NCBI GenBank assembly: GCA_017503235.1 | Contig: JAFVTL010000123.1 | Span: 1 to 52,183 of the forward strand | Length of the DNA: 52,183 bases | Direction: 5' to 3' | DNA from: Bacteroidaceae bacterium | GTDB taxonomy: Bacteria > Bacteroidota > Bacteroidia > Bacteroidales > Bacteroidaceae | The notes under the pieces: model-generated | The model's input: the letters and a program-made list of their open reading frames with translations, nothing else | Told to the model about the DNA's origin: nothing | Database searches by the model: none | Shown: positions 37,941-49,069 of the stretch, piece after piece | Position numbering within the stretch: the first letter of the stretch is position 1 | Layout: every line of letters starts with the position of its first letter | Position numbers and translations under genes: made by a program

Positions 37941-40900
37941 TTATATCATAAAATACTCCGCCTTCGGATTGGCGATATACAAGCCACAAACCGAGGCTTG
38001 GGGGTACATCGCACCATTCTCCGTAAGACGTATGTTTATCGAAGACAAACCGATGAGTTCGTCCATCAAAAACATTGTTTTCTGATCGGGCAAGGAAGGA
38101 TAGCCTATTGCCGGACGAATGCCCTGGTATTTGGCTTTATACAAGTCCTGTATATCCAATCGTTCATCGGGAGCATAACCCCATATCGTTTTACGCACCT
38201 GCTCATGCAACCATTCGCTGGCCGCTTCTACCAGACGGTCGCCCAAACTTTGCATCAGCAAAGAGTCGTAGGGTTCTCCTTGTCGCTTCAAAGCTTCCAA
38301 TGCTTCCACAAAAGATAAAGATACGGTGATGGCAAATGCACCGATATGGTCATTCATTCCTTGAGGGGCAACATAATCGCAAAGAGAAAGACAATAGCCT
38401 TCTGCATTCGGTCGGCTCTGTCGAGGAGTCGGAATCACCGTTTGTTTCTGTACGCCTCCACAACACGGACATCCCACTTCATGGTTTACCACAATGCTGC
38501 TTTCTGTTCCATACGCTTCAAAGAAACCTACACGGGCACTAAGATGATGCTTGTGTTGTATCGCATCGAGCAAAGCTTCGGCTTCCCGACGGATGGTTTC
38601 GGCCTCAGGGGTACCCACACGCACTCCCCAAAGGTTATAGAAATGTTTCCAATTGATATAGGGACGAACAGCGTTGATGGAAATATCTTCGAAAGTACGT
38701 ACGCCTTTATAGGTAGGTTGTACCAAGGTCTCATCTTCCCAACTGATAGATAAAGTGGATGTTCGCAGATTCTTCGCTTCGTTCAAAATGACATCCTGTG
38801 CCTGTTGGTTTGTCTTTCGTTGCAGCTCCTGACGAAGTTGTTCCTGTCCATAGCGCAAGCAAGCAATAGCATGCTCCCGTTGACTACCAGCCAACTGCAT
38901 TGCCAAGATAGGATTCTGGGCGGCATCCTTTACATGGAAGACCGGTCCGTCGTACAGCGGAGCAATCTTCACCGCCGTATGTAGGGCTGAAGTAGTGGCT
39001 CCACCAATAAAGAGAGGAACCGAAATACCGGCCGCACGAAGTTCACTGGCCACGCGACACATCTCGTCGAGCGAAGGAGTAATCAATCCGCTCAAACCGA
39101 TATAATCCACTTGGTGTTCAAGAGCGGCTTCCACAATTTTTTCAGCCGGCACCATTACCCCTAAGTCAATCACTTCGAAATTGTTACATCCCAACACTAC
39201 ACCGGCAATGTTCTTGCCTATGTCATGCACATCCCCTTTGACGGTAGCCAACAAGTACTTGCCACTGGTAGCCATTCCCACCTGTTTGGTCGCTTCGATA
39301 TATGGCTGAAGAATCTCTACGGCACGTTTCATGGTGCGGGCAGTCTTCACCACTTGCGGCAGGAACATCTTGCCTTCGCCAAAGAGTTCGCCAACCAACG
39401 TCATGCCCTTCATCAATGGTCCTTCGATAATGGAAGCGGGTGACGGATAGGTTTGTAAAGCCTCTTCGATATCTTCTTGCAGATAGGTTTCTTCCCCTCG
39501 TTGCAATGCAGTAGCCAATCGGACTTCCAACGGAATGGACTTCCGGTCAACGATCTCTGCAGCGTTTGTTTCTTCGGGTTTGTTTTTATATTGGTCAGCC
39601 AGCGTTATCAGTCTTTCAGTAGCATCCTCACGACGACAAAGAATCACATCTTCCAGCGCCTCCAGCAATTCCTGAGGAATGTCGCCATACATCACCGCGG
39701 TAGACGGATTGACAATGGCCATATCCATACCGGCATGGATGGCATGATACAAGAACACCGCATGCATGGCTTCACGCAGATAGTTGTTGCCACGCAAAGC
39801 AAAGGACAAATTGCTCACCCCACCGCTCACCTTGGCATGAGGCAGGTTTTCGTGTATCCATTGGGTAGCCCGGATAAAGTCGAGTGCATACGCATCGTGC
39901 TCCTTCATACCCGTAGCAATGGTCAGTATATTGGGATCGAAGATAATGTCTTGAGGAGGGAAATGAAGCTTTTCGGTCAACAACCGATAAGCACGTCCGC
40001 ATACTTCTATTTTCCGTTCATACGAGGTAGCCTGCCCCTCTTCATCGAAGGCCATCACAATCAGCGCCGCCCCCAGTTCGCGTACACGGGCCGCCCGTTG
40101 CAAGAATACTTCTTCTCTTTCCTTCAACGAGAGCGAGTTTACCACCGCTTTCCCCTGAATACATTTCAAGGCCGCCTCTATCACTTCGAAACGGGAAGAA
40201 TCGACCATCCACGGCAAGCGTGCAACCTCGGGGTCACTTGCCATCAGGTTGAGGAAATGTGTCATTTCTTCCTTCGCATCCAGCATGGCATCGTCCATAT
40301 TGATGTCGAGCATCATGGCGCCATCACGCACTTGGGCACGGGCAATGGACAAAGCCTCATCGTACGATTTCTCCTTCACCAGACGGAGGAACTTCCGGCT
40401 TCCCGCCACGTTACAACGCTCACCCACATTGATAAAGGAACCCTTGGCATCAAAACCTTCCAAACCGGCCAGCCAAGGCAGAGAAGCAGTTTGAGGAGTG
40501 CGGATAACTTGAGCGTTGGAAGCCACTTCGGCGAGGGCGCGAATATGTTCCGGAGTCGTGCCACAACATCCCCCAATGACGTTCACCAAACATCCATTGA
40601 CAAAGGGGGTGACATGGGCTGCCATCTTTTCTGGTGTCTCGTCGTATTTTCCCATAGCATCGGGCAAGCCGGCATTGGGGTATACACTGATATAGGATGG
40701 AGCGATTTCAGACAAGCGCTTCAAGAAAGGAAGCATCTGTTCAGCCCCAAAAGAGCAATTCAAACCGACAGAAAATATCTCCTCATGGGCAACGGATGTC
40801 AGAAAAGCTTCCAGCGTTTGTCCTGAAAGCAAACGACCGCCTGCATCCGCTACCGTAACCGAAAGCATGACAGGCACTTTCCGTCCTATAGTCTGAAAGA

Positions 40901-41483
40901 CCTCACGTGCTGCACACAAGGCAGCCTTGGCATTGAGTGTATCAAAAATGGTTTCGATAAGCAACGCATCTACCCCACCTTCCATCAACGCCTCCATCTG
41001 TTCAACATAAGCCTTACAAAGAGTGTCATAATCCACGGCACGCAAAGCCGGATTCTCAACGTCGGGCGACATGGAAGTCATCTTGGCGGTGGGTCCAACG
41101 GAGCCTGCCACAAAACGGGGCTTGTCGGGGGTAAGAGCCGTCATGCGATCGGCCTCCTTACGAGCTAAACGAGCCGCCTCGAGATTGATGCGATAGACGA
41201 AGTCGGTTGTCTGATATTCTGTTTGGGAGATGGTCTGCGAATTGAAAGTACAGGTTTCTATAATATCGGCACCTGCTTCCAAATACTGACGATGAATGTT
41301 TGATATAATATCCGGACGGGTAAGTACCAGAATATCGTTGTTCCCTTCCAACTTCACAGGGTGATTCTTGAACTCCTCGCCCCGGAAATCGGCCTCAGTC
41401 AAACCATATTGCTGGATCATGGTACCCAATGCACCATCAAGCACCAGAATACGTTCCTTGATTATATCTTTCATCGTTTTCAT
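37941..41483 (-). CDS. metH: Cobalamin-dependent methionine synthase
   Basis: A 1180-aa four-module enzyme that methylates homocysteine with methyl-tetrahydrofolate. Order: homocysteine domain (1-330; zinc Cys in [12 protein letters not shown] near 242 and [11 protein letters not shown] near 304); pterin domain ([20 protein letters not shown] near 355); cobalamin cap and B12 domain ([20 protein letters not shown] near 749, with the axial His); and a C-terminal AdoMet reactivation domain (from about 915; [20 protein letters not shown]). The linker before the last domain contains [16 protein letters not shown], encoded by an interspersed repeat (38757-38795). It starts 4 bp after metF and is the last gene of the thr-met operon. 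Confidence 0.96.
   Translation of the reverse strand: [1180 protein letters not shown]
38757..38795 (-). repeat. Interspersed repeat inserted in frame in metH
   Basis: On the minus strand this reads ATGTCATTTTGAACGAAGCG followed by AAGAATCTGCGAACATCC. It closely matches the repeat flanking the GIY-YIG gene (8915-8951). It adds about 13 residues to the linker between the B12 and reactivation domains without breaking the frame. Confidence 0.75.
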
Positions 41484-41487
41484 ACCA

Positions 41488-42441
41488 TCAATAAACGGCC
41501 TTGGCTATCGCTTCTACTCCTGCGGCCGCATTCATGGAATAGAAATGGATACTTGGTACATTGGCTGCCTTCAGCTCGCGGGCTTGGGCAATGGCCCATT
41601 CTACACCCAGCGCCTTGACCTCGTCATTCGACTTGCACTTACGCAATGCGTCCGCCAAATCCATCGGGAGGTCGATATGGAATGTCTTGGGCAACAAAGC
41701 CTGTTGGGTAAGCGAAGTCAACGGTTTGATTCCCGGTATAATGGGTACGTTGATTCCCGCTTCTCTACATCGTTTCACAAAATCAAAATACTTCTGATTG
41801 TCGAAGAACATCTGTGTCACCACATACTTGGCACCCAACTGAATCTTCGCTTTCAGGTATTCAATGTCAATATCCATGTTCATCGCTTCCTCGTGCTTTT
41901 CCGGATAACCCGCCACCCCATAAGAGAACAGTCTCTCCAAAGGTTCGTGTGTAGAACCATCAAGCATCATTCCGCTATTGAACTCCTCCACCTGACGACA
42001 CAAGTCAATGGCGTGTTCGTGTCCGTCACGCATGGGGATGAAGCGGTTCTCACCTTTCGCACGGTCGCCTCGTAGTACCAACAAATCCGTAATGCCCAGA
42101 TATGACAGGTCAATCAGTTCATTCTCCAACTCCGAGCGTGAGAAGCCACTACAGATAATATGAGGTACGGTAGGAATGCCATATCGTTCCTTCAAGGTAG
42201 CGGCGATGGCCACCGTACCCGGACGCATCCGTTCGGTAGTACGTTGAAACACTCCTTCCGAGATTTCCTTGTACACCACCTCCGTGCGATGCGTAGTAAT
42301 ATTGATATAAGCCGGATTGAAAGGCAACAACCTTTCAATGGTTTTGAATACCTGCTCTATGCTTTTCCCTCTGACTGGAGGAAGCACTTCGATGGAGAAA
42401 GCCGTACTATGATTGGACGACAAGAAATCCGCTACACTCAT
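41488..42441 (-). CDS. metF: 5,10-methylenetetrahydrofolate reductase
   Basis: A 317-aa FAD-containing TIM-barrel enzyme that provides methyl-tetrahydrofolate to MetH. Signatures: FSIEVLPPVRGKSIEQVFKT (N-terminal Glu of the catalytic site), PAYINITTHRTEVVYKEISE, LVLRGDRAKGENRF, and QLGAKYVVTQMFFDNQKYFD for the flavin site. Length and ends match the bacterial family. It starts 12 bp after thrC and ends 4 bp before metH on the same strand, so methyl supply and use are co-expressed. Confidence 0.96.
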   Translation of the reverse strand: MSVADFLSSNHSTAFSIEVLPPVRGKSIEQVFKTIERLLPFNPAYINITTHRTEVVYKEISEGVFQRTTERMRPGTVAIAATLKERYGIPTVPHIICSGFSRSELENELIDLSYLGITDLLVLRGDRAKGENRFIPMRDGHEHAIDLCRQVEEFNSGMMLDGSTHEPLERLFSYGVAGYPEKHEEAMNMDIDIEYLKAKIQLGAKYVVTQMFFDNQKYFDFVKRCREAGINVPIIPGIKPLTSLTQQALLPKTFHIDLPMDLADALRKCKSNDEVKALGVEWAIAQARELKAANVPSIHFYSMNAAAGVEAIAKAVY

Positions 42442-42453
42442 TTACGCTGTAAT

Positions 42454-43755
42454 TTATTCTTTCAACAAATAGGCTTTGAAACTTTCAAAATCCTTTGGCA
42501 TTTCGATACTCTGCTTGGTACCTTTCATGAACTCCTGCAACTTGGCTGGAATTTCCACCTTATCGCCAATGATGGCTTCCACAGTATCCAGGAACTTGGC
42601 CGGATGAGCGGTTTCAAGGAATACTCCCACTTCATCTTCCGACAAACCTTCTTCAAGGGCACGATAGCCGCAGGCTCCATGAGGATCGAGCAGATAACCA
42701 GTTTCCTGATAAGCGGCCTTCACCGTTTCACGAATCTGTTCATCGGTATAAGTCGCACCGGATATTTCGGCACAGATAGCTTCGTGGCTGTTTTCATACA
42801 AAGCCAGCACACGGGCAAAATTGCTCGGATCGCCCACATCCATTGCATTGGCAATGGTAGCTACTGAAGGACGGGGATTATATTTTGCCGTCTGCAAATA
42901 TTGGTAGAATATGTCATTCTGATTGTTTGCAGCAATGAAACGCTTTACGGGGAGACCCATTCGTTTTCCGAACAGACCTGCGGTGATGTTTCCGAAGTTA
43001 CCGCTCGGCACACAAATCACCAGATTATCCGCCTTGCCCGCTTTCTTCATTTGTGCATAAGCATAGAAATAATAGAAAGCCTGAGGGAGGAATCGGGCCA
43101 CATTGATGGAATTGGCCGATGTCAGCTTCATGTGTGCATTGAGTTCCGCATCCATAAAGGCGTTCTTCACCAATGCCTGACAATCGTCAAAAGTACCATC
43201 CACTTCAATGGCAGTGATATTCTGACCGAGGGTGGTAAATTGTTTTTCTTGTATCTCGCTGACCTTTCCCTTCGGATAGAGTACATATACATGAATACCT
43301 TCCACCCCTAAAAAGCCATTGGCAACGGCACTGCCCGTATCGCCCGAAGTGGCTACCAGTACGTTCACTTGCTTCTGGCCTTCCTTCTTGATGAAGTAAC
43401 CCAACAAACGGGCCATAAAGCGACCGCCTACATCCTTGAAAGCCAAAGTCGGGCCATGAAAAAGTTCCAACGAATAGATGTTTTCCTTCACCTTGACAGC
43501 CGGTACATCAAAGCTCAATGTATCATACACAATCTGCTTCAAAGTGTCGGCAGGTACATCTTCGCCAAAGAAGGCATCGGCTACCTGATAGGCTATTTCC
43601 TGAAAAGACAGATTCTCGATGTTGTCATAAAACGATTGAGGCAATGCCTTGATGACATGGGGCATATACAAGCCTTTGTCGGATGCAAGGCCTTTTACTA
43701 CGGCTTCCTGCAAGGAAGCATCGGGTGCCTGGTGGTTGGTGCTATAATACTTCAT
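42454..43755 (-). CDS. thrC: Threonine synthase
   Basis: A 433-aa PLP enzyme that converts O-phospho-homoserine to threonine. The N-terminal MKYYSTNHQAPDASLQEAVV and GLASDKGLYMPHVI are typical of the long threonine synthase class. The PLP Lys lies in FHGPTLAFKDVGGRFMA (about residue 105). VLVATSGDTGSAVANGF and CVPSGNFGNITAGLFGKRMG bind phosphate and cofactor. The start is placed at 43755; an upstream MVKKTIIY extension runs into the interspersed repeat. Third gene of the thr-met operon. Confidence 0.96.
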   Translation of the reverse strand: MKYYSTNHQAPDASLQEAVVKGLASDKGLYMPHVIKALPQSFYDNIENLSFQEIAYQVADAFFGEDVPADTLKQIVYDTLSFDVPAVKVKENIYSLELFHGPTLAFKDVGGRFMARLLGYFIKKEGQKQVNVLVATSGDTGSAVANGFLGVEGIHVYVLYPKGKVSEIQEKQFTTLGQNITAIEVDGTFDDCQALVKNAFMDAELNAHMKLTSANSINVARFLPQAFYYFYAYAQMKKAGKADNLVICVPSGNFGNITAGLFGKRMGLPVKRFIAANNQNDIFYQYLQTAKYNPRPSVATIANAMDVGDPSNFARVLALYENSHEAICAEISGATYTDEQIRETVKAAYQETGYLLDPHGACGYRALEEGLSEDEVGVFLETAHPAKFLDTVEAIIGDKVEIPAKLQEFMKGTKQSIEMPKDFESFKAYLLKE

Positions 43756-43771
43756 ATATATTATTGTTTTT

Positions 43772-43848
43772 TTCACCACAGATTACACAGATTATCACAA
43801 ATAAATAATTATTAAAAAACTGTGTCAATCCGTGTAATCTGTGGTGAA
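43772..43848. repeat. CACAGATTACAC inverted repeat between apgM and thrC
   Basis: Arms 43772-43799 and 43821-43848 match at 25 of 28 positions when inverted (TTCACCACAGATTACAC core). The right arm lies inside the apgM reading frame and encodes its last residues. In mRNA it would form a strong hairpin. Confidence 0.85.
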
Positions 43849-45053
43849 CTCATAAATTCATTCATAAACTCATTTTCTTTCATCACTCCGTAAACTCCAT
43901 CCTTACAAGCTTCTTCATCGAAAGTCTGTACTCCGTCCGGTTTAATGCCCGGATAGTATATCAGGAATGGGACGGGTTCGGCGGTATGGGTACGAAGTTC
44001 GCAAGGGGTTGGATGGTCAGGCAATACGGCAATGGCCACCGGTTCTTCCCAATCCTTGACAGCTTCGTAGATAGGACCTACAACACGCTTGTCCAAGTCT
44101 TCGATAGTGCGTCGCTTCAATTCAAAATCCCCTTCATGACCAGCCTCATCACTTGCTTCGATGTGCAAGTAAACGAAATCGTCCGTTTTCAACGCCTCCA
44201 AAGTCGCAGCCACCTTGTTCTCATAATTCGTATCATACAAGCCTGTTGCCCCTTCCACGTCAACACGCTGAAGGCCCGCATATACCCCAATACCATTTAT
44301 CAGGTCTACAGCCGATATGACTGTACCTTTCTGAATACTTGGATACATGTTTGACAAGGGTTCCATCTGTGGACGATAGCCGGGACTCCATGGCCAGATG
44401 CTATTGGCAGGATCTTTTCCTTCAGCCATCCGCTTCAGATTGATTGGATGGTTCTTCAACAACTCCTGGGATTTCAATATCAAGTCATTGATAAGGTCGG
44501 CTGTTTCCTGCGCTTCAGGCGTTTCCGCTTTCACCATCAAAGGACGGAAAGGCTTCAAAGGAACATCATGCGGAGGCGTGCAAGCAATATGCTTGTTTCC
44601 ACCCTTGATGACTAACAAATGGCGATATTGTACCCCGGTATGAAAATGGACGCGCTCGCTTCCCAATTCTTCTTGCAGATACTTTATCAAGACATCAGCA
44701 TCTTCCGTACTGATATGACCGGAAGAGTGGTTCTTCAAGATTTCCCCTTCAACACAGATGATGTTACATCGCATCGCCATATCACCGGGTTGCAATTCAA
44801 CCCCGATACTGGCTGCCTCGAGTACACCACGCCCTTCATACACTTTCGGCAAATCATAGCCCATCACCGACATGTTGGCCACCTCACTTCCGGGATGAAA
44901 GCCTGGTGCTACGGTAACAAGCCTTCCCGTACGACCCATACATGCCAGTTTGTCCATATAAGGAGTATGGGAATGTTGCAGGAGTGTCCTGCCTTCCAAA
45001 CGTTCGGCAGGCCAATCGGCCATTCCATCTCCCAATACAATTATATGCTTCAT
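43812..45053 (-). CDS. ApgM-like phosphoglycerate mutase homologue, probable homoserine kinase
   Basis: A 413-aa alkaline-phosphatase-superfamily protein of the archaeal cofactor-independent PGM type. Signatures: HIIVLGDGMADWPAERLEGR (metal Asp), SEVANMSVMGYDLPKVYEGR (nucleophile-region Ser), IEASDEAGHEGDFELKRRTI and VLPDHPTPCELRTHTAEPVP (metal Asp/His). It lies between thrA and thrC, exactly where thrB is expected, and no GHMP homoserine kinase is in view. Genomic context, and to my knowledge genetic work in Bacteroides, point to homoserine phosphorylation rather than glycolysis. The last about 12 residues (SPQITRIDTVF) come from an interspersed repeat. Start 45053 (MKHIIVLGDGMADW). Confidence 0.88.
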   Translation of the reverse strand: MKHIIVLGDGMADWPAERLEGRTLLQHSHTPYMDKLACMGRTGRLVTVAPGFHPGSEVANMSVMGYDLPKVYEGRGVLEAASIGVELQPGDMAMRCNIICVEGEILKNHSSGHISTEDADVLIKYLQEELGSERVHFHTGVQYRHLLVIKGGNKHIACTPPHDVPLKPFRPLMVKAETPEAQETADLINDLILKSQELLKNHPINLKRMAEGKDPANSIWPWSPGYRPQMEPLSNMYPSIQKGTVISAVDLINGIGVYAGLQRVDVEGATGLYDTNYENKVAATLEALKTDDFVYLHIEASDEAGHEGDFELKRRTIEDLDKRVVGPIYEAVKDWEEPVAIAVLPDHPTPCELRTHTAEPVPFLIYYPGIKPDGVQTFDEEACKDGVYGVMKENEFMNEFMSSPQITRIDTVF

Positions 45054-45137: not shown

Positions 45138-47567
45138 TTAAATATTCGCAATTCCGATAATGTCCGCAAAGACACCTGCCGCAGTTACGCTGGCACCGGC
45201 GCCATATCCTTGAATCATCATCGGATACTCATTATAACGTTCGGTTGTAAGCAAAATGATGTTATTGCTACCTTCCAGATTATAGAAAGGATGGTTCTTG
45301 TCCACTTCCTGAAGCGAGACGCTTCCCTTTCCATTTTCCAATTTGGCTACAAAGCGCCAATGCTTATGCTGTTCTTCCAATTGTTTGCGACGGGCTTCAA
45401 AATCATCATCGAGTGACGGGATGTTCTTCCAGAAGTCTTCCAACGAACCTTCGAAGAATCCGTTGGGCACAAACAAATGCTTTTCTACATCTTCCTGTTC
45501 CAAACGATAACCGGCTTCACGAGCCAAGATCACCAGTTTTCGGATAACGTCCTTACCACTGAGGTCGATACGTGGGTCGGGTTCTGAATAGCCTTCTTCC
45601 TTGGCCATACGGATAGTCTGGCTGAAAGGAATCTCACCACTGATCTTGTTAAAGATAAAGTTCAACGTACCGCTCAGCACCGCTTCTATCTTCAGAATCT
45701 TGTCACCCGAATTGATCAGGTCATTCATGGTCTTGATGATAGGCAATCCGGCACCCACGTTGGTCTCGAAGAGGAACTTCACGCCCCGTTTGCGAGCAAT
45801 TTGTTTCAATTCGCTATAATTGGCATAGGAAGAAGAAGCCGCTATCTTGTTGGCCGCTACTACCGAAATGTTGTTAGTCAGGAAGTCCTTGTACAATTCG
45901 GCGACAGAGGCATTGGCTGTACAATCCACAAATACGGAATTGAAAATGTTCATGCCAATCACTTCGTCACGGATAATTTGAGAACTGGATGCACCGCCCT
46001 TTTCATCCAACAAAGCCCGATAATTGGACAATTCAATGCCTTCGCGGTTGAACAGAGCCTGATGTCCGTTGGCAATACCCACCACGTTCAACTTCAAACC
46101 ACGTTCCTGCATCAGCTTCTTTTGCTGGCCGCAGATTTGCTTGATCAAGCTATCACCCACCGTACCTGTTCCACAGATAAACAGGTTGAGCACCTGATAT
46201 TCTGAAAGGAAGAACGAATCGTGAATGACATTCAATGACTTGCGGAGCGACTTGGCTTCCACCACAAACGATATGTTGGTTTCCGATGCCCCTTGCGCAC
46301 AAGCAATCACACTGATACCATTACGTCCGAGAGTTCCGAACAACTTACCGGCAATACCCGGAGTATGCTTCATGTTTTCACCCACAATCGCTATGGTTGC
46401 CAAATCCTTTTCAGCACATACAGGGCTGATTTCACCCATTTCTATTTCCTTGCAGAATTCCTGATTCAGCACTTCACAGGCCAACGATGCATCTTCATTA
46501 CGTACCCCGATGGAAGTACTGTTTTCCGATGAAGCCTGCGACACCATAAACACGCTGATACCATTTTGCGCCAAAGCCTTGAAGATACGGAAGTTCACAC
46601 CAATAACGCCCACCATACCCAAACCGGTCACGGTAATAAGGCTGGTATCGTTGATGGATGAAATCCCCTTAATGGCCTTGATGTCAGTCACTGTTTCCTT
46701 GATGATGGTACCCGGTGCATCAGGGTTGAAAGTATTCTTGATGAGAATAGGGATATTCTTATGACAAACGGGATAAATCGTTGGAGGATATACCACTTTG
46801 GCACCAAAGTTACAAAGCTCCATGGCTTCCACATAGCTCAATTCATTGATGACATAAGCGCTGCTGATGACACGAGGGTCGGCCGTCATAAATCCGTCCA
46901 CGTCCGTCCATATTTCCAGAATGTCCGCATCGAGGGCAGCCGCGATGATGGAAGCGGTATAATCGGAACCTCCACGTCCCAGATTGGTGATTTCACCGGT
47001 TGACTTGTCGGAAGATATGAATCCAGGAACCAATGCAACCTTTGGTAATTTCTTAAAGGCATTGCGCACCAACTCATTTGTCAATTCCGAGTCAAGGATA
47101 TACTTGGCATGCTTTTTTTCGGTTTTAATGAATTCACGGGAATCAAACCATTCGGCATCCTCTATCAAAGTCGCTACAATGATGGACGAAAGGCGTTCGC
47201 CATAACTCACAATAGTAGCTGAGGTCTTGGGTGAAAGGTCGCGAATGAGATAGATTCCTTGAAAAATATCCTTCAATTCATTAAGCAAGCCCGTCACTTT
47301 TTCCAGCAATGCCATACGCTTTTCACCGGCTGGTATCACGGTATATACCATCTCGATGTGACGGTTTACAATTTCATTATATTCTTTTTCGTAGGCTGCA
47401 TCACCATTGGAAGCCATTCGTGAAGTGCCTATCAACTTATCGGTAATACCGCCCAAGGCCGACACCACAACAATCACCGGTTCCTTAACCGCCTCTACTA
47501 TCTTCTTTACACTTAAAATGCTGTTCACGGATCCTACGGATGATCCGCCGAATTTCATTACTTTCAT
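45138..47567 (-). CDS. thrA: Bifunctional aspartate kinase / homoserine dehydrogenase I
   Basis: An 809-aa fusion enzyme for steps 1 and 3 of the threonine/methionine path. The kinase part starts MKVMKFGGSSVGSVNSI and has NLGRGGSDYTASIIAAALDA. Two ACT domains follow (about 310-455, ITVTGLGMVGVIGVNFRIFK and VGENMKHTPGIAGKLFGTLG), expected to bind threonine. The homoserine dehydrogenase part has LFICGTGTVGDSLIKQIC (about 465), FLFETNVGAGLPIIKTMNDL and EGYSEPDPRIDLSGKDVIRK. Full length. It is the first structural gene of the operon thrA-apgM-thrC-metF-metH and is preceded by a leader peptide ORF. Confidence 0.97.
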   Translation of the reverse strand: MKVMKFGGSSVGSVNSILSVKKIVEAVKEPVIVVVSALGGITDKLIGTSRMASNGDAAYEKEYNEIVNRHIEMVYTVIPAGEKRMALLEKVTGLLNELKDIFQGIYLIRDLSPKTSATIVSYGERLSSIIVATLIEDAEWFDSREFIKTEKKHAKYILDSELTNELVRNAFKKLPKVALVPGFISSDKSTGEITNLGRGGSDYTASIIAAALDADILEIWTDVDGFMTADPRVISSAYVINELSYVEAMELCNFGAKVVYPPTIYPVCHKNIPILIKNTFNPDAPGTIIKETVTDIKAIKGISSINDTSLITVTGLGMVGVIGVNFRIFKALAQNGISVFMVSQASSENSTSIGVRNEDASLACEVLNQEFCKEIEMGEISPVCAEKDLATIAIVGENMKHTPGIAGKLFGTLGRNGISVIACAQGASETNISFVVEAKSLRKSLNVIHDSFFLSEYQVLNLFICGTGTVGDSLIKQICGQQKKLMQERGLKLNVVGIANGHQALFNREGIELSNYRALLDEKGGASSSQIIRDEVIGMNIFNSVFVDCTANASVAELYKDFLTNNISVVAANKIAASSSYANYSELKQIARKRGVKFLFETNVGAGLPIIKTMNDLINSGDKILKIEAVLSGTLNFIFNKISGEIPFSQTIRMAKEEGYSEPDPRIDLSGKDVIRKLVILAREAGYRLEQEDVEKHLFVPNGFFEGSLEDFWKNIPSLDDDFEARRKQLEEQHKHWRFVAKLENGKGSVSLQEVDKNHPFYNLEGSNNIILLTTERYNEYPMMIQGYGAGASVTAAGVFADIIGIANI

Positions 47568-47813
47568 GCTATTATTATATTTTCAGCACAACCTTTTCCG
47601 GCTTTGCTTTCAGTTACAGAATAAAAAAATTGATTGATTGCTTACATCCATAAGCGTGTATCACGTAGAAACACATATACTATCCTTAACCCCGAGGGGT
47701 CATCATGGTGGTAGTGGTCGTCATCGTCCACATTCGCATAGCAGCGGTTGTATATAGATAGCACTTTGTCATATTTTCAAGATGTTCTTTTTCAGTTTTC
47801 CACTTGAACGATG
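47568..47813 (-). promoter_or_regulatory. thrA leader region, putative Thr/Met attenuator
   Basis: About 240 nt of untranslated leader lie between the -7 box (47814-47821) and thrA. The leader carries a peptide ORF rich in Thr and Met, then a small stem GCTTA/TAAGC (47640-47655) followed 10 nt later by seven U (47623-47629). A second hairpin lies near 47587-47610 (AGCA..GCC / GGTTGTGCT). The stem before the U run is weak, so the exact terminator/antiterminator pairing cannot be settled by eye. Control by charged tRNA level is inferred from the peptide composition. Confidence 0.65.
47686..47772 (-). CDS. thrL: Thr/Met-rich leader peptide of the thr-met operon
   Basis: An ORF of 28 codons from the ATG at 47772 (or 17 codons from the in-frame ATG at 47739: MRMWTMTTTTTMMTPRG), ending with TAA at 47686-47688. 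In the long form 10 of 28 residues are Thr and 6 are Met, including five Thr in a row followed by two Met. This is the composition of attenuation leaders such as enterobacterial ThrL, but with Met in place of Ile. That fits the genes downstream, which make both threonine and methionine. The stop overlaps a small ACCCC/GGGGT stem. Too short for ordinary gene callers. Confidence 0.82.
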   Translation of the reverse strand: MTKCYLYTTAAMRMWTMTTTTTMMTPRG

Positions 47814-47821
47814 CAAATATA
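47814..47821 (-). promoter_or_regulatory. -7 box of the thr-met operon
   Basis: The minus strand reads TATATTTG, with ATTG near the -33 position (47841-47844). The start of transcription would be near 47807, about 35 nt before the long leader ATG. Confidence 0.6.
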
Positions 47822-47917
47822 AGAACATTTTTTCACAAGTCAATAAGTTTCTCTCGTTTTTTGTCAAATTAGTTGCATCAACCGGGAGATGAAAACAAAA
47901 AATCCGTGCCAAAAAAA

Positions 47918-47954
47918 ATAAGTGGATGTGTATTTTCGACACATCCACCTTATA
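47918..47954 (-). terminator. Terminator of pepT-gcvT
   Basis: ATAAGTGGATGTGT pairs with ACACATCCACCTTAT. On the minus strand the stem is followed by TTATTTTTTTT. It lies 30 bp after the gcvT stop. Confidence 0.9.
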
Positions 47955-47983: not shown

Positions 47984-49069
47984 TTATTTTCTGAATGGAG
48001 CCTTCACTACCTTGGCTTTCAACTTACGTCCACGCACATCAATGAATATTTCTGAATCGATGGCCGCATATGCTTTAGCTACATAACCCATACCGATACC
48101 AATCTTGCGGGTCGGCGACATGGTACCACTGGTTACTTCACCGATTTCTTCACCTTCGGCATTGACCAGCTTGTATCCGTGACGAGGAATACCGCGATCC
48201 ACCAATTCAAAGGCAACCAACTTGCGGGTTACGCCTTCCGCCTTCTGCTTTTCGAGGATGGCACGAGCCGTAAAGTTCTTGCCTTCTACAAACTTGGTAA
48301 TCCAACCGAGTCCTGCTTCCAACGGTGAAGTGGTGTCACTCAAATCATTTCCATAAAGACAGAAGCCCATTTCAAGGCGAAGGGTGTCACGAGCACCAAG
48401 ACCAATCGGCTTGATACCTTCAGGAGCACCGGCTTCAAAGATGGCATCCCAAATCTTCTTGCCGTCTTCCGGATAGAAGTACAATTCAAAGCCGCCAGCA
48501 CCCGTATAACCGGTATTGGAGATAATCACATTCGGACAGCCGGCAAATTCACCGGTAGTGAATGCATAATAAGGAATCTCAGCCAAATTTACCGGAGTCA
48601 GGCGTTGCAACACTTCGGCAGCCTTGGGACCTTGGATGGCCAGCTGAGCCATACGGTCGGATGAGTTTTCCAATTCAGCACCAACCTGATTGTGGCTCAC
48701 ACACCAGTTCCAGTCCTTTTCAATATTGGCCGCATTGACTACCAACAGATACTTTTCATCTTCATAGTGATAAACCAACAAGTCATCCACGATGCCACCT
48801 TCTTCATTCGGGAAGCAAGTGTATTGAGCCTTTCCCAAAGGAAGAATGGCTACGTTGTTGGAAGTCACTTGTTGCAAGAATTCCAAAGCATTCGGGCCTT
48901 TCACCCAAAATTCACCCATATGTGATACATCGAACACACCTACCCCGTTACAAACGGTCATGTGTTCATCAATGATGCCTGAGTATTCTATCGGCATGTT
49001 ATAACCTGCAAATTCATGCATTTTTGCTCCAAGAGCAATGTGTGTTTCGGTAAACGGAGTTGTTTTCAT
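47984..49069 (-). CDS. gcvT: Glycine cleavage system T protein (aminomethyltransferase)
   Basis: A 361-aa tetrahydrofolate-dependent enzyme that releases ammonia from the aminomethyl group carried on H protein and makes methylene-tetrahydrofolate. Motifs: [20 protein letters not shown], with the catalytic Asp at about 97 in [57 protein letters not shown] and [20 protein letters not shown]. Length is normal. It lies 24 bp after pepT, probably co-transcribed. The one-carbon product can feed MetF/MetH encoded nearby. Confidence 0.96.

Follow-up and report, generated by a model that had tools for sequence, protein, structure and literature searches.

The window, i.e. the whole 52,183-nucleotide stretch of Bacteroidaceae DNA analysed here, contains on its minus strand five genes in the order thrA-apgM-thrC-metF-metH, with intergenic gaps of 4-84 nt. 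The first-pass annotation had proposed this operon, together with a Thr- and Met-rich leader ORF between the thrA promoter and thrA. Both proposals hold: the gene order is as stated, with names assigned by NCBIfam models, and the ORF is found at 47772..47686 (-), 118 nt from thrA. It is unannotated and comprises 28 codons (MTKCYLYTTAAMRMWTMTTTTTMMTPRG), including ten Thr codons, five of them consecutive, and five Met codons besides the start; Ile is absent.

47814..47843, minus strand: promoter, TTGACT-16 nt-TATATT by sigma-70 scan (47843-47816), overlapping a Bacteroides-type TAnnTTTG box TATATTTG (47821-47814)
47686..47772, minus strand: leader ORF, from an alignment of 71 leaders and a frame test
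45138..47567, minus strand: thrA, bifunctional aspartate kinase/homoserine dehydrogenase I (NF006959, 1050.6 bits versus a cut-off of 726)
43812..45053, minus strand: apgM-like gene, proposed homoserine kinase, start chosen at ATG (TIGR02535, 571.3 bits versus 446.3)
42454..43755, minus strand: thrC, threonine synthase, start chosen at ATG (TIGR00260, 314.9 bits versus 167.1)
41488..42441, minus strand: metF, methylenetetrahydrofolate reductase (TIGR00676, 291.4 bits, just below the cut-off of 293.7)
37941..41483, minus strand: metH, methionine synthase (TIGR02082, 1467.1 bits versus 1010.85)

On the same strand, the next gene upstream (47984-49069) has a strong terminator-like hairpin behind it at 47950-47920, and the leader therefore most likely belongs to thrA. 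The segment containing this hairpin (47901-47954) is a copy of a dispersed repeat that matches 13 further places in the genome with 81-98% identity, several copies having the shared ATCCGTGTAATCCGTGCC alongside.

Conservation and coding signature of the leader

Relatives of thrA are present in 58 of 60 genomes, and 80 named loci were considered in addition. Upstream DNA was available for 110 loci (30 from the genome search and 80 named loci, some in both). The P3 hairpin motif, described below, lies upstream of thrA at 77 of these loci, or 71 after removal of six identical stretches, and a pattern on the end of the peptide retrieved 74 leaders from the same 110 loci. The motif is absent from 33 of them (L023, L043, L050, L058, L080, L087, L089-L091, L093-L102, L104, L105 and L107-L118); L104 has a leader ORF despite the missing motif. 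The covariance model R1 (E up to 0.01) matched 100 of 399 family genomes, 82 of the 207 good ones and 13 of 30 genera. Forty of the 102 places in these 100 genomes were read, and two of the forty (L162 and L176) have neither thrA nor apgM downstream. The set A2 comprises 56 of the 62 sequences prepared. At 14 thrA loci from other families of the order, no P3 was seen by eye, and four of them (L132, L140, L141 and L143) have Thr- or Thr/Ile-rich ORFs. The Thr/Ile leader of the distant relative L143 (G057; MKHQLHTIITITTTRPQTS) is followed by a strong hairpin and a T-run, like a textbook attenuator.

An alignment of Bacteroidales thrA leaders, which the first-pass annotation had suggested as a check, covers 71 leaders and shows that the ORF and its Thr/Met codons are conserved. 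The start giving 28 codons is the better conserved one, with ATG in 65 of the 71 aligned leaders by column count versus 34 of 71 for the 17-codon start. The leader ORF of the window is real and exceeds chance.

In codon composition, the leader ORF bears the mark of coding selection, with Thr and Met codons enriched in frame. The reading frame contains 23.3% Thr and 12.5% Met (1,321 codons from 69 leaders) without any stop, versus 5.8 and 3.4% Thr and 0.4 and 0.7% Met in frames +1 and +2, respectively (1,252 codons each). The start codon, the codon just before the P2 helix (mostly Met) and everything past it were left out, and the test covered 69 of 72 leaders, as the script found no start in L053, L072 and L106, while L056 was read in the wrong frame. 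Ile accounts for 5.2% of the in-frame leader codons, and many leaders of the group L019-L042 have one to four. Among Thr codons, ACA makes up 36% in leaders (n=382) versus 17% in the thrA genes of the named loci (n=1,652), and ACG 11% versus 31%. Among 91 thrA leaders, 78 have Met and 12 have Thr immediately ahead of the residue that opens P2; in apgM-first leaders readable by the pattern (13 of 18) this position is never Met. By conservation and coding signature, the locus would thus provide what is expected of an attenuator at the peptide level, namely a short ORF upstream of a biosynthetic operon with in-frame enrichment of end-product codons.

RNA helices and terminator-like sites

Three helices, P1, P2 and P3, and a further hairpin, T, can be drawn at the leader of the window, and the comparison among relatives identifies P1, P2 and P3 as conserved predicted RNA helices.

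47756..47764, minus strand: P1, 5' strand GTGCTATCT (codons 3-6), pairing with 47685-47677; re-pairing test on 72 leaders
47677..47685, minus strand: P1, 3' strand GGATAGTAT, immediately past the stop codon, pairing with codons 3-6
47689..47700, minus strand: P2, hairpin ACCC-CUCG-GGGU over the last codons, ending right before the stop codon
47656..47674, minus strand: P3, hairpin GTGTTTC-UACGU-GATACAC with a nearly invariant loop UACG(U/C), the sole match of its pattern in the window's genome
47640..47655, minus strand: T, hairpin GCTTATGGATGTAAGC directly past P3; a T run (47629-47623) starts 10 nt later

For P1, the mean duplex energy of the native strand pairs is -9.63 versus -8.34 (sd 0.22) over 5,000 re-pairings among species, the best of which reached -9.27, in a comparison between species that share ancestry. 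Where the 3' strand is divergent (32 leaders), native pairs average -7.81, barely better than the -7.69 obtained with the common 3' strand, and one another's strands give -6.86. The best duplex is not always located at codons 3-6. It reaches -6 kcal or better in 62 of 72 leaders and falls short of this in the other ten; in 46 of the 62 it ends 0-2 nt before P3.

P2 has the form ACCC-4 nt-GGGU, with GCCC/GGGC in L056, L072 and L106, and its outer pair is A-U in 40, G-C in three and unpaired in 13 of 56 sequences. Its end is separated by 13-20 nt from the start of P3 in the 70 leaders read. As a raw count, all 72 leaders have a TAnnTTTG box 40-150 nt ahead of P2. P3 has a stem of 7 bp, one pair of which is weak or mismatched; its loop is UACGU in 62 and UACGC in six of 72 leaders, while the stem pairs vary. 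For P2 and P3 together, 88.1% of the cells are paired versus 86.4% in shuffles, and the covariation score is 0.064 versus 0.037, neither value being reached by any of 500 shuffles; the counts of pairs changed on both sides and of further pair types were reached by 19 and 29 of 500 shuffles, respectively. Pairing of the P3 loop with the upstream leader was considered and rejected, as a complement occurs in 12 of 72 leaders, below the shuffle value of 16.6. The idea that P3 is a general module was likewise rejected: its exact pattern has no or one match in 18 of 19 genomes, and the two matches in G025 belong to the thrA and apgM leaders. One match (L130 in G056) has no leader around it. T lies directly past P3 in 42 of 72 leaders by script and in ten more by eye, and 20 of 72 are without it.

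The fold of the window leader has a z-score of -2.0, with 6 of 200 shuffles equally good. In folds that begin at the leading edge of a ribosome, the formation of P3 and T depends on where the ribosome stands; folding without a ribosome and at seven positions gave results that changed but were not shared among leaders. At the sampled positions, 28 of 64 leaders have some stall with P3 below 0.5, versus 36.0 expected for leaders shuffled between codon 8 and P2; mean P3 is 0.722 for native versus 0.673 for shuffled leaders. With every codon taken, P3 falls below 0.5 in 45 of 64 leaders. T does so at some stall in 12 of the 42 leaders where it formed with the ribosome at the stop codon, the shuffle control having covered P3; in the window, T drops from 0.99 without a ribosome to 0.51 with a ribosome at codon 8. 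A selected antiterminator was rejected, because P3 is disturbed no more by native than by shuffled leaders and no folding result is shared. The mutually exclusive hairpins for which the first-pass annotation had proposed to look did not emerge, P1, P2 and P3 being mutually compatible.

A terminator-like site between P2 and thrA was called in 23 of 72 leaders versus 3.8 expected. Nineteen of the 23 sites are at P3/T, and 17 of these 19 are in the group L019-L054. No such site was called in the clade of the window (L009-L018 and L040), in agreement with the scan of the window itself, where the T run starts only after the 10-nt gap behind the T hairpin. The intrinsic terminator expected of an attenuator between leader and first gene was thus not found in the window and its clade.

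Leader content and the genes that follow

The Thr and Met content of the predicted peptides goes with the genes that come next: leaders before thrA alone contain mainly Met, leaders before thrA and then apgM contain both, and leaders before apgM contain Thr. Where apgM was seen next to thrA, internal Met is present in 70 of 72 leaders and at least three Thr in 71 of 72; this neighbourhood was checked for 73 of the 91 thrA leaders, L168 belonging to the 73 and standing outside the count of 72. Where apgM comes first, all 18 leaders have at least six Thr, and two have internal Met. The three leaders before thrA alone all carry internal Met, with five Met and one Thr in L056, five and none in L072 of P. 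abscessus, and two of each in L106 of P. oris, which lacks an ATG start and was assigned a TTG start by hand. Neither apgM nor thrC is found downstream of thrA within the 3 kb examined at these three loci. The genome of L056 (G066), a Bacteroidales MAG, contains thrA, metA and the Met-rich leader, and no thrC was found in it, reflecting either loss or an assembly gap.

Within-genome pairs are the most telling cases. P. abscessus holds both leaders, L072 before thrA and L119 before apgM, and so, less clearly, does P. oris (L106 and L131). In both species apgM-thrC is located elsewhere, behind a leader of its own with P2 and P3, and the encoded peptides, MRTYNCLTFVTSFTVTTLRG... and MNKVYFITTLFTTSTSFFTLTLRG, contain six and seven Thr, respectively, and no internal Met. 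In L119, at about 1440-1545, the ORF has no stop past P2 and continues through P3. The genera g44 (12 loci), g37 (three) and g50 (one) also have a Thr-rich leader before apgM. Internal Met is present in two of these 16 leaders, in one of them (L153) perhaps as a result of a longer start choice. In g44 and g50, thrA is not followed by apgM, and no P3-like motif was found upstream of thrA. At two g37 loci, L207 and L208, a short Met-containing ORF is seen close to a P2-like hairpin, again without a P3-like motif.

Fisher's test on distinct peptides (67 of 69 versus 2 of 17 with Met) gives 8e-13, a value that counts relatives many times. On an apgM tree of 89 rows, built by a quick method, five linkage changes are needed, three of them forced by well supported branches; among independent pairs, Met goes in the expected direction in 1.8 of 3 on average and in the opposite one in 0.1 (sign test, p = 0.5). 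The association between content and linkage is not significant once corrected for kinship; the tree shows only three to five independent splits. Internal Met is missing from two of the 91 thrA-first leaders. L038 and L047 are linked and without internal Met, though both genomes hold metA and metF, and loss of the Met pathway was rejected as the reason for Met-free linked leaders, metA being present in G019 and G062. L047 is sister to the largest split group, g44, and Met may therefore have been lost there before the split. The apgM of g44 (L153-L165) groups with that of L047, a Bacteroides-like genome, with 98% support, which suggests that apgM-thrC and its leader were transferred between genera.

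The idea that one leader serves both Thr and Met survives in part: leader content tends to follow the genes controlled, though not by way of metF-metH, whose presence in the operon had been given as the reason for the Met codons. A search for metF found a relative in 60 of 61 genomes (two genomes counted twice), but only the window's genome (G000) and its two nearest by thrA identity, G006 and G009 (93% and 91%), have it co-directional with the thr genes and downstream of them; leaders elsewhere carry Met as well. In G017, metF is located 3.8 kb upstream of the thr genes on the opposite strand. Since homoserine, the product of thrA, is the precursor shared by Thr and Met, and thrA thereby feeds both pathways, Met sensing would be sensible without metF-metH. 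The metF of the window (41488-42441) shares about 50-57% identity with the metF of most relatives and 88-90% with that of G006 and G009, and G006 has both kinds (G006:C24 and G006:C29); metF may thus have been acquired and then added to the thr operon.

Proposed mechanism, rival readings and known systems

We consider it probable that the element is a ribosome-mediated attenuator, whose leader peptide would sense the supply of charged threonyl- and methionyl-tRNA for the genes of the homoserine family. Most control codons lie inside the loop that would be closed by P1, between codons 3-6 and the bases past the stop codon. A ribosome waiting at a hungry Thr or Met codon would sit in this loop and keep P1 open, leaving the genes on. 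Once the ribosome finishes and leaves, P1 could close and abut P3 and T, often leaving no unpaired base at the junctions, and the stacked P1-P3-T would constitute the off state, in which transcription into the operon falls. As the control codons are mostly between the P1 strands and the duplex ends next to P3, P1 would report the presence of a ribosome on the control codons. Candidates for the last step are weak intrinsic termination at T, Rho, pausing, or a factor reading the P3 loop.

A rival reading is a classical attenuator, in which a stalled ribosome allows an antiterminator to form and T (or P3) otherwise acts as an intrinsic terminator. The excess of terminator-like sites, most of them at P3/T, the weakening of T at some stall, also in the window, and the strong hairpin and T-run behind the Thr/Ile leader of L143 argue for the classical arrangement. 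We nevertheless regard it as somewhat unlikely, given that no selected competitor of P3 was found, that T is missing in 20 of 72 leaders and that the window clade is without a called site. Translation of the leader might instead determine whether Rho can reach the untranslated stretch of roughly 100-240 nt ahead of thrA. This reading, which we rate as unlikely, accords with a stretch between leader and thrA that contains no known gene in the leaders read and with the lack of an ordinary terminator before thrA in most leaders, yet leaves the conserved P3 unexplained.

The two other readings concern what is sensed. It is improbable that the leader senses Thr only and owes its Met codons to RNA structure: the commonest Met does abut P2, and internal Met is absent from two of the 91 thrA-first leaders, but the in-frame excess of Met was obtained with the pre-P2 Met excluded, and Met is retained in L056 and L072 with Thr almost gone, the opposite holding for apgM-first leaders. 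The element could also be an RNA structure that binds a protein or metabolite, its ORF being incidental. This would fit a P3 loop that is almost invariant (UACG(U/C) in 68 of 72 leaders) above a varying stem; the coding signature, the codon content and the absence of Rfam hits in the leader, also with the E-value limit relaxed to 1, make it very improbable.

Among known systems, end-product-rich leader peptides control biosynthetic operons by attenuation, and enterobacterial ThrL is rich in Thr and Ile. With enterobacterial thrL (Thr_leader in Rfam), the element shares a short Thr-rich leader upstream of a thrA operon and two amino acids per leader. It differs in that Met replaces Ile as the main partner, in the P1-P2-P3 layout and in the lack of an ordinary terminator in the window clade. 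No Rfam match, including to the Thr_leader and T-box covariance models, was obtained at gathering score, nor in 47500-47850 at E up to 1. As it has neither a called terminator in the window clade nor an Rfam match, the element is not filed as Thr_leader, although its working principle resembles that of thr and other amino acid leaders. Like the trp, his and ilv attenuators, it has end-product control codons in a leader ORF before biosynthetic genes; in contrast to amino acid attenuators generally, no selected pair of mutually exclusive hairpins was found, and its leader content goes with operon break-up. Met-sensing T-boxes and SAM riboswitches likewise control methionine genes from a 5' leader, but they bind tRNA or SAM directly, whereas here no such family matches and sensing would be via codons.

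The uORF of ilvBNC in Corynebacterium (PMC10272879) also belongs with the ribosome-mediated attenuators of amino acid operons. In B. thetaiotaomicron, a related species, extended 5' UTRs carrying leader-like short ORFs have been reported, for example at BT_4401 (PMC7366714, whose main text contains neither 'threonine' nor 'homoserine' and does not mention this leader). The relevant passages of PMC8632094 and PMC4833913 do not name it either. Among the matches listed from the open-licence literature, no published account of this leader was found. A 2010 survey of attenuation by Lopatovskaya et al. may include Bacteroidetes cases.

A more far-reaching reading, which we consider less likely than not, is that the element represents a new Bacteroidaceae class of leader RNA: an attenuator poor in terminators, with the control codons enclosed by P1, which would report clearance rather than position of the ribosome and stack on P3, whose fixed UACG(U/C) loop may be read by some factor. 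Its codons may have been rewritten when the thr operon broke up, giving separate Met and Thr sensors. To our knowledge, little is known about the control of amino acid synthesis in Bacteroidales. The leader would provide a concrete, testable regulator before a central branch point, with methionine codons added as a likely control residue, and the leaders whose codons change with the genes they precede offer natural experiments. In many species no ordinary terminator accompanies the RNA element, so another kind of output step may await discovery.
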